13,059 nt of DNA, taken from contig JALTZH010000151.1 in the NCBI GenBank assembly GCA_027051265.1, positions 1 through 13,059 of the forward strand. The letters are read 5' to 3'. The position numbers were made by a program, and so were the translations under genes. Shown here in pieces: positions 2,891 to 13,059 of this stretch. Positions within the stretch are counted from its first letter, which is position 1; each line of letters begins with the position of its first letter. The DNA comes from an archaeon (GTDB lineage Archaea; Hydrothermarchaeota; Hydrothermarchaeia; JALTZZ01; JALUTC01). The notes beneath the pieces are model-generated. The model saw nothing but the letters and a program-made list of their open reading frames with translations, did not search any database and was not told the origin of the DNA.

Positions 2891-2941
2891 TCAACATTGA
2901 AAAACGATTATCAATAATTTAATAATTAGGTGAAAAGGATC

Positions 2942-3583
2942 ATGCCTAAAAATAAACGTAATTCAATTGAAATAATATCAATTGGTGCTGAAGCAAAAAT
3001 AATTAAAAATGGTGATCTTATAATAAAAGAAAGAATAAAAAAAAGTTATAGAAACGAATTCATTGATAATTATTTAAGAAAATTTAGAACAAGAAGAGAA
3101 GCGAAATTGTTATATGAAGCAAAAAAGGCCGGAGTTCCTGTACCTTTTATTATTGATTTAGATGATGATCGAATTGTCATGTCATATATAGATGGAGATA
3201 GATTGAGAGATATCGTGGATCGATTAGATAAAGAAAAAAGAACAAAAATATTTGAGGAAATTGGAAGATTCGTTGCTAGGTTACATTTATCTGGTATAGT
3301 TCATGGTGATTTGACAACGAGCAACATATTAATAAAGGATGATAAGATATTTTTTATAGATTTTGGTTTAGGAGATTTTACTAAAGATATCGAGGATATA
3401 GCTGTTGATTTACTTTTGTTCAAAAAGTGTATAAGAACAAGTCATTACAAATATGAGGAAGAGATTCTTAACGCTTTCTTTAAAGGATATTGTGAAGAAT
3501 ATAAGAATTGTGAAGAGGTGATCAAAAGAATGAATGAAATAGAAAAGAGAGGTAGATATTTTAAGAGAGGTGAGAATAATTAA
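2942..3583 (+). CDS. bud32: KEOPS complex serine/threonine kinase Bud32
   Basis: The atypical kinase/ATPase of the KEOPS complex, which with Kae1 makes N6-threonylcarbamoyladenosine at position 37 of ANN-decoding tRNAs. It is here a stand-alone protein of 213 residues, not fused to Kae1 as in many euryarchaea. Visible motifs are GAEAKI (residues 15-20, short Gly loop), the ATP-binding Lys29, Glu53 in RTRREAKLL, the catalytic loop HGDLTTSNIL (Asp123, Asn128) and DFGL (Asp140). The C-terminus EKRGRYFKRG matches the RGR-tail typical of Bud32. I prefer ATG at 2942, with AGGTGA about eight bases before it, over the in-frame GTG at 2930 that lies inside this ribosome site. Its 3' end overlaps the next gene by 14 bases, suggesting one transcript. 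Confidence 0.95.
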   Translation: MPKNKRNSIEIISIGAEAKIIKNGDLIIKERIKKSYRNEFIDNYLRKFRTRREAKLLYEAKKAGVPVPFIIDLDDDRIVMSYIDGDRLRDIVDRLDKEKRTKIFEEIGRFVARLHLSGIVHGDLTTSNILIKDDKIFFIDFGLGDFTKDIEDIAVDLLLFKKCIRTSHYKYEEEILNAFFKGYCEEYKNCEEVIKRMNEIEKRGRYFKRGENN

Positions 3584-4457
3584 CTGTATTTCGATACAAC
3601 ATAGATATTTATCCTATAAAATCTTTAAAAAACTAACGTTTAATGATGAAGAAGAATTTTATAGAAATTATCCGAATCCTAGAGATAAACTTGTTGTACA
3701 AACGGCAACGAGATTAGATATTTATTTTTATGATAAGAATGAGTTACAATATATTCTAAATTTTATAAGAAGAAAATCGTATCAAAAAGATTTTCCCTAT
3801 CTCTATTATGAGGGAAGAGATGCAATGTTATATCTGTTAAAATGCTTATGTAGAATAGAATCCAGAACTTTATCTGAAAGTTATCTTGATACGATTATTA
3901 GATACAATTATAATCGATTTAAAAATAATTTTTCTCCCCTATTTAAGAATAAACTTTCGAAATGTTTAGATATTGCTACTAAATATATGCTAAAAAATGA
4001 AATCAAATATAAAATATACGAAAAAATTAAAAATATTATCAAAGATAAAAAAATATTAATATATGGTGTTTCCAGATCAGCCTTGTATCTCTCTAAACTA
4101 ATACCTAAAGATTATCTAAGAATTTATCATAAAAATAGGAGATTATTAAGAATATTATATGGTAAAGAAATGGAAAAATGTTTTATTGAAAATTTAGATT
4201 ATGAAAAAGATATTGATATATTCATTTGTGCAACACTTGCTTCTCATGAAAGAATAAATGAAGAATTTTTTAAAAATTTCAAAAAGAAAGTGTATGTTAT
4301 CGATATATCACCTTTTAAAAATTTTAAACTCAAGGACGAAAAATATGTAAAGTATGATCATGAAATACGTGATCTCATTGAGAAAAACTATGAAGATGAA
4401 ATAAATAAAGCTTCATCCATAGCTAAGAAATTATTAGAAATTGTTGATTCCTTATAA
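3570..4457 (+). CDS. Degenerate glutamyl-tRNA reductase homologue (probable pseudoenzyme)
   Basis: A 295-residue protein that follows the plan of glutamyl-tRNA reductase (HemA, glutamyl-tRNA to glutamate-1-semialdehyde) but has lost its key residues. VVQTATRLDIYF (residues 42-53) aligns with the catalytic 'LLQTCNRVEVY' motif; Ala46 replaces the nucleophilic Cys and Thr47 the Asn. GRDAMLYLLKCLCRIESRTLSESYL aligns with 'GsEAvrHLFrVAsGLeSmmvGEqeIL', with the His changed to Tyr and the Gly to Ser. The nucleotide-binding segment KKILIYGVSRSALYLSKLI replaces the 'GAGEMG' glycines. ICATLASHERI and VYVIDISPFKN match later strands, and the C-terminal dimerisation domain is mostly absent (295 against about 400 residues). 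The start is GTG at 3570, overlapping bud32. The frame is intact, so it is probably expressed, but normal GluTR chemistry is very unlikely. Confidence 0.75.
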   Translation: MRIINCISIQHRYLSYKIFKKLTFNDEEEFYRNYPNPRDKLVVQTATRLDIYFYDKNELQYILNFIRRKSYQKDFPYLYYEGRDAMLYLLKCLCRIESRTLSESYLDTIIRYNYNRFKNNFSPLFKNKLSKCLDIATKYMLKNEIKYKIYEKIKNIIKDKKILIYGVSRSALYLSKLIPKDYLRIYHKNRRLLRILYGKEMEKCFIENLDYEKDIDIFICATLASHERINEEFFKNFKKKVYVIDISPFKNFKLKDEKYVKYDHEIRDLIEKNYEDEINKASSIAKKLLEIVDSL

Positions 4458-5314
4458 AGAAGTAAATAAGCTTTTGTTATATATCCTCGTAACAATATAA
4501 GGGTATGTTAACATGTTCTCAAAACGCTCAGGTTCATCCGTTATCGTATATATAACGTTTCCAAAACAATTCGCTGTAAATTCTTCATACCTTTTTAATA
4601 ACCTTAACGTCTCTATATCATGAACTTTCAGTTCAAATATAAACCTTCTAGATAGTTTAATATATGTTCTTAAACTTTTATTTTTTAAAAATATCTTTAA
4701 CAAAACTTTACCTAGTTGATAATTTGTTACCCTATGTCTTAATAACTCTCGTGTCTTAATTTCCCTTCCTACTATATAGAATATCAAATATTTATCGGAT
4801 GTCAATTTCTCTACGTTACAGTACTTTAAGCTTCCAGGACTTTTTCTTATCGTTATACCACCATATACCTGTGAAATTACACTACCTAGTCCAGTTTTAC
4901 ACATAATCTCTGATATATGTGCTAAATTTATTATTATCCCGTGATCAACATCAATACCTAATGCTTCTTTAAGAGCAATCAATGCCGCGAGTGTTCCTGA
5001 TGATGATGTTGCAAATCCCTGAGATATTGGTAATTTAAAATAATTTTTAATTATAACTTTACCTTTAAATTTAATATATCTCAGAAACATTTCTACAGCT
5101 TGTCTTGTTGTCTGACATGTACATTCTCTTTCATTAACGTATATCTGAATGGATTGCATGTTATCTTCATCTTTCTTTAAAAAAACTTTGGAACAACAAC
5201 CTTGGTCTAAACAGATACTTATACCAATAGATCCAGATTTCAATGGATTTTTGTTATACACCGGATAAAAAAACCCGTAATGCTACATGGAACGAATTGT
5301 TTATATGATTTCAT
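4452..5314 (-). CDS. Pantoate kinase (GHMP family), frameshifted near the N-terminus
   Basis: Archaeal pantoate kinase phosphorylates pantoate to 4-phosphopantoate in the archaeal coenzyme A route. The main frame (5261 to 4452) contains KNPLKSGSIGISI, the GHMP ATP loop LPISQGFATSSSGTLAAL, and CKTGLGSVISQVYGG. The conserved N-terminus is found in another frame upstream: from ATG at 5314 one reads MKSYKQFVPCSITGFF, matching the family's 'VPghITGFF'. The two frames join at a run of seven T (plus-strand A7 at 5267-5273); one extra T, or a -1 ribosomal slip on T_TTT_TTT, gives a continuous 287-residue product of normal family length. The alternative is a GTG start at 5261, which would delete a conserved motif. 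The gene lies 24 bases after glnK on the same strand, with no strong Shine-Dalgarno. Its stop overlaps the convergent GluTR-like gene by six bases. Confidence 0.85.
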
Positions 5315-11708: not shown

Positions 11709-13059
11709 TTAATGTTTAACGTTTCTTAAGTTTCTGGATGCTTCTAATAATAATTTCTTTTCTTCTCTAGCAACAGTTTCTCTAACTAAAAAGATAGCAT
11801 CTGGATTTACGGATATGGAATCAATTCCTAATTTCACCAAAATCCTTGCCATTTCCGGATCACTTCCTGCTTGTCCACATATCGATGTTTCTACGTTATA
11901 TTTCTTGCACACATTTATGACATGCTCTACTAATTTTACTACTGCTGGATGTTTTTCACTGAAAAGTTTCTGTACGAGTTCATTATTTCTATCAATTCCA
12001 AGTGTTAGTTGTGTTAAATCATTAGTACCAAAAGATATAAAATCAATACCTGCTTTTCTTATTATATCTTCTATGATTATTGCTGATGCTGGAGTTTCAA
12101 CCATAATTCCTAGCTTAACATCTTTATGTGGTTCTAAACCAACCTCTTTCATTAATTCTTTTGCTCTAATAACTTCTTCAGGAGATATCACAAATGGAAG
12201 CATTATCCAAATATTATTAAGACCATTTTCTTTTATAAGTTTTTTAAATGCTCTTATTTGAGCTTTAAACAACTCTGGTTGGTCAAGGTCTCTCCTTATT
12301 CCGTGCCACCCCATCATAGGATTTGCTTCAACCGGTTCTTTCTCACCACCTTCTAGGTTTCTGTACTCATCTGTTCTCATATCTAATGTTCGTACAATTA
12401 CATATTTTGGATACATTATTCTCAATATCTCACCCAATTTCTCTGATAAAAGTCTTTCAAACTCGTCTAATTTATTTTCCTCTAAATACCATCGAGGATG
12501 TTTTCCACCGTGTGCAATCAAAAACTCCAATCGTAATAATCCTATACCATCAACATATTCCTTATATCTTTTAGCAATATCCGGGTGAGATGCGATCAAC
12601 AATATTTTTGTTGCGGTTATTTCCATTGGAACTAATTTGGTAACCTTTTTAACAACTTCCTCCTTTTCTTTCGCTTTTTCTTCTAATTCGATAGCACCTT
12701 CGTAAACGACACCTCTTGTAGCATCTACTGTAACGGTTTGACCATCGTGTAATATTTTCGTTGCTTCTCTCGTTCCAACAATACAGTTATGAGCTATTAG
12801 AGATAGAAAACCTTTTTGACAAATTACAACATAGTTTTCCGTATCTTCAACTTCTAGGTTATATACGTAATCTTTACCCAACATCTCACAAGATTTCACG
12901 CTTGCGAATTTAGTTTCAATCTTTTTCTCATCAACGATCCCACCATCTGCAAGTAGATGTTGTGAAATTTTAAGATTTGAAGTTAGTAAAGGAACGCCAT
13001 TTTCATAAACTTTTCCTATAGGAATCCAATGAAAATCATTATTGTTAAATACTAAAACG
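11709..13059 (-). CDS. ppsA: Phosphoenolpyruvate synthase, C-terminal part with intein (partial)
   Basis: PEP synthase makes phosphoenolpyruvate from pyruvate and ATP, the entry into gluconeogenesis (and pyruvate use). The frame is open from the stop at 11709 to the right edge, about 450 residues, so the apparent GTG start at 12899 is internal. From 13059 to 12786 it is the C-terminal part of an intein; the extein resumes at Cys 12785-12783 with CIVGTREATKILHDGQ, the end of the swivelling phosphohistidine domain. The TIM barrel follows: GIGLLRLEFLIAHGGKHPRW, VIVRTLDMRTDEYRNLEGGE, EANPMMGWHGIRRDL, LGIMVETPASA, SFGTNDLTQLTLGIDR and SICGQAGSDPEMA, whose Cys is the general acid. The phosphorylated His domain core and ATP-grasp domain lie beyond the window. 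It heads the minus-strand group with the MTH1187-type gene eight bases downstream. Confidence 0.95.
   Translation of the reverse strand, partial: VLVFNNNDFHWIPIGKVYENGVPLLTSNLKISQHLLADGGIVDEKKIETKFASVKSCEMLGKDYVYNLEVEDTENYVVICQKGFLSLIAHNCIVGTREATKILHDGQTVTVDATRGVVYEGAIELEEKAKEKEEVVKKVTKLVPMEITATKILLIASHPDIAKRYKEYVDGIGLLRLEFLIAHGGKHPRWYLEENKLDEFERLLSEKLGEILRIMYPKYVIVRTLDMRTDEYRNLEGGEKEPVEANPMMGWHGIRRDLDQPELFKAQIRAFKKLIKENGLNNIWIMLPFVISPEEVIRAKELMKEVGLEPHKDVKLGIMVETPASAIIIEDIIRKAGIDFISFGTNDLTQLTLGIDRNNELVQKLFSEKHPAVVKLVEHVINVCKKYNVETSICGQAGSDPEMARILVKLGIDSISVNPDAIFLVRETVAREEKKLLLEASRNLRNVKH
12786..13059 (-). mobile_element. Intein in PpsA, C-terminal part (probably endonuclease-free)
   Basis: About 91 residues of a Hint-type protein-splicing domain in frame within ppsA. 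Block F is YVYNLEVEDTENYVV and block G is SLIAHN, ending with the penultimate His and terminal Asn (codon 12788-12786) and followed by Cys as the +1 extein nucleophile; all C-terminal splicing residues are intact. Upstream, FHWIPIGKV and LKISQHLLADGGIVDEKK look like the strands after block B of the Hint fold ('gW....L..Gd.l...dG'). Between these and block F there is no room for a LAGLIDADG endonuclease, so it may be a mini-intein. The N-terminal splice blocks are beyond the right edge. The site is beside the conserved PpsA phosphohistidine domain, typical of inteins. Confidence 0.85.

Follow-up and report, generated by a model that had tools for sequence, protein, structure and literature searches.

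What is a glutamyl-tRNA reductase (GluTR, HemA) homologue without its catalytic cysteine kept for? The question is raised by an open reading frame in the window analysed here, a contig of 13,059 nucleotides (C151 of genome G000) from an archaeal assembly of 1.46 Mb (95% complete, 257 contigs) whose named relatives are Hydrothermarchaeota, archaea of the deep sea and the subsurface, e.g. Pyrohabitans jungbluthii JdFR-16 and Hydrothermarchaeum profundi JdFR-18. An earlier note on this DNA had described the product as a pseudoenzyme of the GluTR family that could regulate heme synthesis or partner a second, true HemA. The intact 295-residue frame reported there was borne out, and each of the residues listed in it was read again at the same place. 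The catalytic-like part carries TATR at residues 45–48, with Ala46 in the cysteine position and Arg48 kept, Tyr88 in place of the conserved histidine (HLF in canonical GluTR), Ser98 and Glu103 kept, and Ser102 replacing the glycine of GE. The NADPH-binding GxGxxG is GVSRSA, which lacks the second and third glycines.

Table 1. Features of the window discussed in the text.
Feature	Coordinates	Strand	Remarks
Cys-less GluTR-like paralogue	3570–4457	+	295 aa, GTG start; profile, model and structural matches
Catalytic-domain-like part	3570–4055	+	about residues 1–162, boundaries approximate; profile and alignment
Rossmann-like part	4056–4340	+	about residues 163–257, boundaries approximate
Start of spinal helix	4359–4457	+	residues 264–295; from the model
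bud32 (KEOPS kinase)	2930–3583	+	14 nt overlap with the paralogue
Pantoate-kinase-like GHMP kinase	4452–5261	−	convergent to the paralogue; outside the system
hemD (uroporphyrinogen-III synthase) fragment	2–286	−	contig edge; PF02602, E 3.8e-9

The surroundings of the gene in the window are listed in Table 1. The overlap with bud32 noted earlier was confirmed and is also present in the sister species (L052), being limited to the window's genus. The hemD gene reported nearby is indeed there as a fragment, a tetrapyrrole gene 3.3 kb from the paralogue. At 11709–13058 (−), the window also encodes the C-terminal part of a PEP synthase following an intein-like end (...FLSLIAHNC), with a weak Intein_splicing match (E 0.13).

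Taken singly, the window protein matched GluTR families below their cut-offs, with 21.1 bits (E 2.8e-4) for GlutR_N (PF05201, cut-off 27, which most of its relatives pass) and 25.2 bits for TIGR01035 (hemA, cut-off 209.55); Shikimate_DH was matched at E 8.3e-4 and PF13241 (SirC/Met8, precorrin-2 dehydrogenase) gave no match. A profile built from the paralogue family matched the Methanopyrus GluTR (1gpj) at E 3.7e-51. As judged from the sequences, the single-sequence matches are real but weak, and the family profile is decisive. An AlphaFold model computed from a 13-sequence alignment (mean pLDDT 90.5, pTM 0.87) agreed with this assignment: the significant Foldseek matches were GluTR chains only (E 5.8e-11 to 1.2e-8), and VIA-align gave Z values of 15.4–17.2 for whole-length GluTR chains against at most 12.0 for any other. 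The homology to GluTR claimed in the earlier note, which had proposed the comparison with the Methanopyrus structure, is thus upheld by profile and model. The whole-chain rmsd to GluTR chains was large (8–10 Å, TM about 0.5), the domains of the model being perhaps set at different angles. The alignment covers residues 1–318 of 1gpj and stops there, which indicates that the C-terminal dimerisation domain is absent and that the chain ends within the spinal helix. In the model, the catalytic-domain and Rossmann folds of GluTR are kept.

Relatives of the window protein were found in 17 of the 23 genomes of the class and in one genome beyond it. A search by sequence pattern through some 85,000 species genomes, which divergent members may escape, gave only records of this group and that one outsider. 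The cysteine is missing from all 16 paralogues examined (Gly in 12, Ala in 2, Asn and Ser in one each) and present in 29 of the 30 other GluTR sequences compared. The loss highlighted in the earlier note therefore holds throughout the family, while the alanine itself belongs to the branch of G000 and its sister species G001. The residue after the lost cysteine has changed from Asn to Thr (T-x-TR), and replacements at the cleft between the two domains are invariant and clade-specific (N46T, L238, S240, R243 and P-to-F266, Pyrohabitans numbering). Paralogues have CATLASHxR where GluTR usually has (T/S)AT(S/A)xPxxI, and D-x-SPF-x-N where GluTR has an invariant proline, so that (nearly) invariant paralogue-specific residues surround this cleft. 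The window protein bears the full signature, as T-x-TR, CATLASHER (220–228) and DISPFKNF (245–252). In the pocket, the paralogues retain Arg, Ser and Glu; the histidine is present in 14 of 16 and a GAGLTG-like GxGxxG in most, but the window and its sister species have tyrosine for the histidine and have lost the glycine motif. The window's genus is the most degenerate branch of the family. The copy of the sister species, 61% identical to the window protein, is also intact.

Such losses, together with a long stem branch (2.79), might be read as the decay of a hemA duplicate, a reading that the earlier note had itself considered. Frames are, however, intact in all full-length copies, the clade-specific residues are invariant and the origin is ancient. 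The dN/dS of the paralogue was 0.15–0.30 in four genome pairs, compared to 0.07–0.19 for hemA of the same genomes, and was the higher of the two in three pairs; in the window pair, synonymous substitutions have reached saturation (pS 0.81, pN 0.25). Decay is so improbable on these grounds that we consider it ruled out. The pseudoenzyme proposed earlier is supported as regards the GluTR reaction, under purifying selection, and the existence of a conserved pseudo-GluTR family is close to certain. In a maximum-likelihood tree, paralogues and Hydrothermarchaeal HemA fall on different sides of a branch supported at 100/99. A recent duplication of Hydrothermarchaeal HemA is therefore unsupported and the split looks old from the sequences, with the caution that long branches limit the tree.

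By membership, the window protein is not a GluTR but a variant derived from that family, with several of its defining features missing. Paralogues share with GluTR (M. kandleri 1gpj; Arabidopsis 4n7r, 5che and 5yjl) the catalytic-like and NADPH-domain-like folds, the start of the spinal helix and the pocket residues, but lack the cysteine and the dimerisation domain and have a remodelled cleft; the window protein additionally lacks the histidine and GxGxxG. A second GluTR-like protein in a genome of family code f12 (G024, L070:8188-9432) resembles the paralogues in having the cysteine replaced (TQSR for TCNR) beside a true HemA. Unlike them, it clusters with the HemA encoded by G024 itself (100/100), has a longer C-terminal part and contains neither CATLASH nor SPF, which indicates an independent loss of the cysteine. 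Second GluTR-like proteins are also found in the f12 genomes G066, G086, G264, G314 and G347; TQSR was read in G024.

Could the paralogue serve the heme pathway? The search of the genome for a canonical hemA was successful: a gene on C33 encodes 417 residues with TCNR and reaches 248 bits with TIGR01035. The paralogue is thus not a stand-in for a missing HemA, and the true HemA foreseen in the earlier note exists. A replacement of SirC or CbiX is likewise ruled out, both being encoded separately in G000 (SirC on C12) and in many carriers, SirC in most.

A different association emerged from the gene neighbourhoods. Outside the window's genus, the paralogue lies with dsrA and dsrB (TIGR02064 and TIGR02066, above cut-off), a small ferredoxin gene, an unassigned gene and a gene for an AhbD/NirJ-like radical SAM/SPASM protein (TIGR04053), whose relatives include heme b synthase and NirJ. 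It adjoins dsrAB in nine genomes (G006, G007, G008, G011, G017, G018, G019, G021 and G044), and the direction of transcription is often divergent with respect to dsrA. In the window's genus there is no such adjacency: in G000 the type-A dsrAB genes are on another contig (G000:C48:8335-10476) and the radical SAM gene is on C142. Just upstream of dsrAB on C48 (L113:3377-10557) lie genes for glutamate-tRNA ligase, KaiC-like proteins and an AhbC/NirJ1-like radical SAM protein, the last of which precedes dsrAB in the window's genus. Eight genomes encode, immediately upstream of the paralogue and mostly with an overlap, a protein of 180–207 residues (CEVCRHP...TYTLCEV...PSF) whose family matches nothing in Pfam or NCBIfam (loci include L057:9039-9662, L058:11431-11967, L062:9147-9698 and L066:692-1243) and is absent from the window's genome; the unassigned 183-residue neighbour likewise had no match in either. 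Tandem DUF1246/DUF1297 proteins occur near the paralogue in genus g4 (L058:7310-9613, L059:2467-4698 and L065:256-2488).

The association was also found at the level of whole genomes. All 13 class genomes with dsrA above cut-off have the paralogue. When fragmentary dsr genes are taken as present, 16 of the 23 genomes contain both the paralogue and type-A DsrAB, one the paralogue only, none DsrAB only and six neither (Fisher p 7e-5), that is 16 of 17 carriers against none of six non-carriers; the strict count, with dsrA over cut-off, is 13/4/0/6 (p 0.002), both values being uncorrected for phylogeny. The single exception, G014, has the paralogue and the radical SAM gene and no dsrA was found in its assembly, which is 88% complete. 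In G016, which lacks the paralogue, the only DsrA is of another, divergent type (40% identical; 74% identical to the second copy of G008). G013, a congener of Pyrohabitans, is devoid of paralogue, dsrA and radical SAM gene; an assembly gap is unlikely to be the cause, since the genes flanking the cassette in Pyrohabitans lie inside contigs next to other neighbours. The TIGR04053 gene has nearly the same distribution as the paralogue and was not found in a few carriers. In the genome outside the class, G044, the genes for the paralogue, radical SAM protein, ferredoxin, DsrB and DsrA stand in a row, as if transferred as a unit. Because G044 and G011 belong to one series of groundwater MAGs, mis-binning keeps a small probability; against it, the contig has a GC of 0.376, consistent with the value given in the record name, and the sequences differ from those of G011 (59% for the paralogue). 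No family-level match to the paralogue was obtained in seven further dsrA-containing archaea from outside the class (G028, G285, G334, G291, G372, G144 and G379), indicating that the paralogue is not required for DsrAB generally. Taken together, these data make it highly likely that the role of the paralogue is linked to Dsr.

This distribution bears directly on the regulatory role suggested earlier, in which the paralogue would act as a regulator or decoy of ALA synthesis by binding tRNA-Glu, GSAM or canonical HemA. Its GluTR origin, the retention of Arg48, Ser98 and Glu103 and the presence of canonical HemA in the same genome are in line with such a role. However, five of the six non-carriers (G010, G012, G013, G016 and G022) have hemA without type-A DsrAB and without the paralogue, which indicates that the paralogue follows DsrAB and not hemA or the heme pathway; no linkage to hemA was found, and the protein lacks the dimerisation domain with which mixed dimers could form. 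We thus regard regulation of, or partnership with, HemA as quite improbable.

What, then, would a Dsr-linked protein of this origin do? With the catalytic cysteine lost, the thioester route of GluTR is closed to it. The conservation of a family without cysteine, the remodelled cleft and the ties to a siroheme enzyme and to a tetrapyrrole-type radical SAM protein make the handling or tailoring of siroheme the most economical idea. The remodelled inter-domain cleft of the paralogue would bind siroheme, one of its precursors or else a glutamyl-like group, and the paralogue, with the radical SAM protein, would help to deliver or tailor siroheme for DsrAB. We give about an even chance to the full proposal, i.e. 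a GluTR-derived family that has lost the thioester chemistry and was recruited as an accessory of one DsrAB type to handle siroheme or its precursor in the cleft; siroheme handling as the specific role falls slightly short of that. A siroheme chaperone, or a unit with the TIGR04053 protein that tailors siroheme for the early-branching archaeal DsrAB, possibly yielding a modified siroheme, is a tentative refinement.

Two other Dsr-linked roles were weighed. An NAD(P)H-dependent oxidoreductase acting on another substrate in Dsr-linked cofactor chemistry, with no covalent cysteine intermediate, would account for the retained dinucleotide-binding fold and for the GxGxxG, His, pocket Arg, Ser and Glu kept in most members. 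Yet glycines two and three of the motif and the histidine are gone from the window's genus, which keeps the family signature, so that hydride transfer, if conserved in the family, would need to have been lost in that genus; this role appears rather unlikely. With both the glycine motif and the histidine gone, the paralogue of the window's genus is probably purely non-catalytic, as far as its sequence tells. Less likely still is an accessory of DsrAB assembly or electron transfer without a tetrapyrrole ligand; the linkage to dsrAB and ferredoxin would fit it, but descent from a tetrapyrrole enzyme favours a cofactor role and the associated radical SAM protein has relatives that act on siroheme-derived tetrapyrroles. 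The paralogue is therefore probably a Dsr-specific accessory, most plausibly in siroheme handling, and not a general regulator of heme synthesis.

Among known proteins, DsrN and the radical SAM enzymes AhbC, AhbD and NirJ share with the paralogue a link to siroheme or to dissimilatory sulfite reduction, but their folds are unrelated to it. DsrN phylogenies include Hydrothermarchaeota sequences (PMC10504309), hence siroheme amidation is probably covered without the paralogue. The papers on Dsr evolution and Hydrothermarchaeota (PMC10504309, PMC10591310 and PMC6775978) do not mention a GluTR-like gene, and in the literature searched we found no description of this family nor of a Dsr-linked or Cys-less GluTR.

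If the proposal is true, the enzyme of the first committed step in tetrapyrrole synthesis would have become an accessory protein. To our knowledge, little has been established on how siroheme is handed over to sulfite reductases, and the gene set is compact and amenable to in vitro testing. The DsrA of Hydrothermarchaeota is described in PMC6775978 as a form that evolved early, and a partner inherited with this DsrAB would therefore bear on the way in which dissimilatory sulfite reduction is put together.
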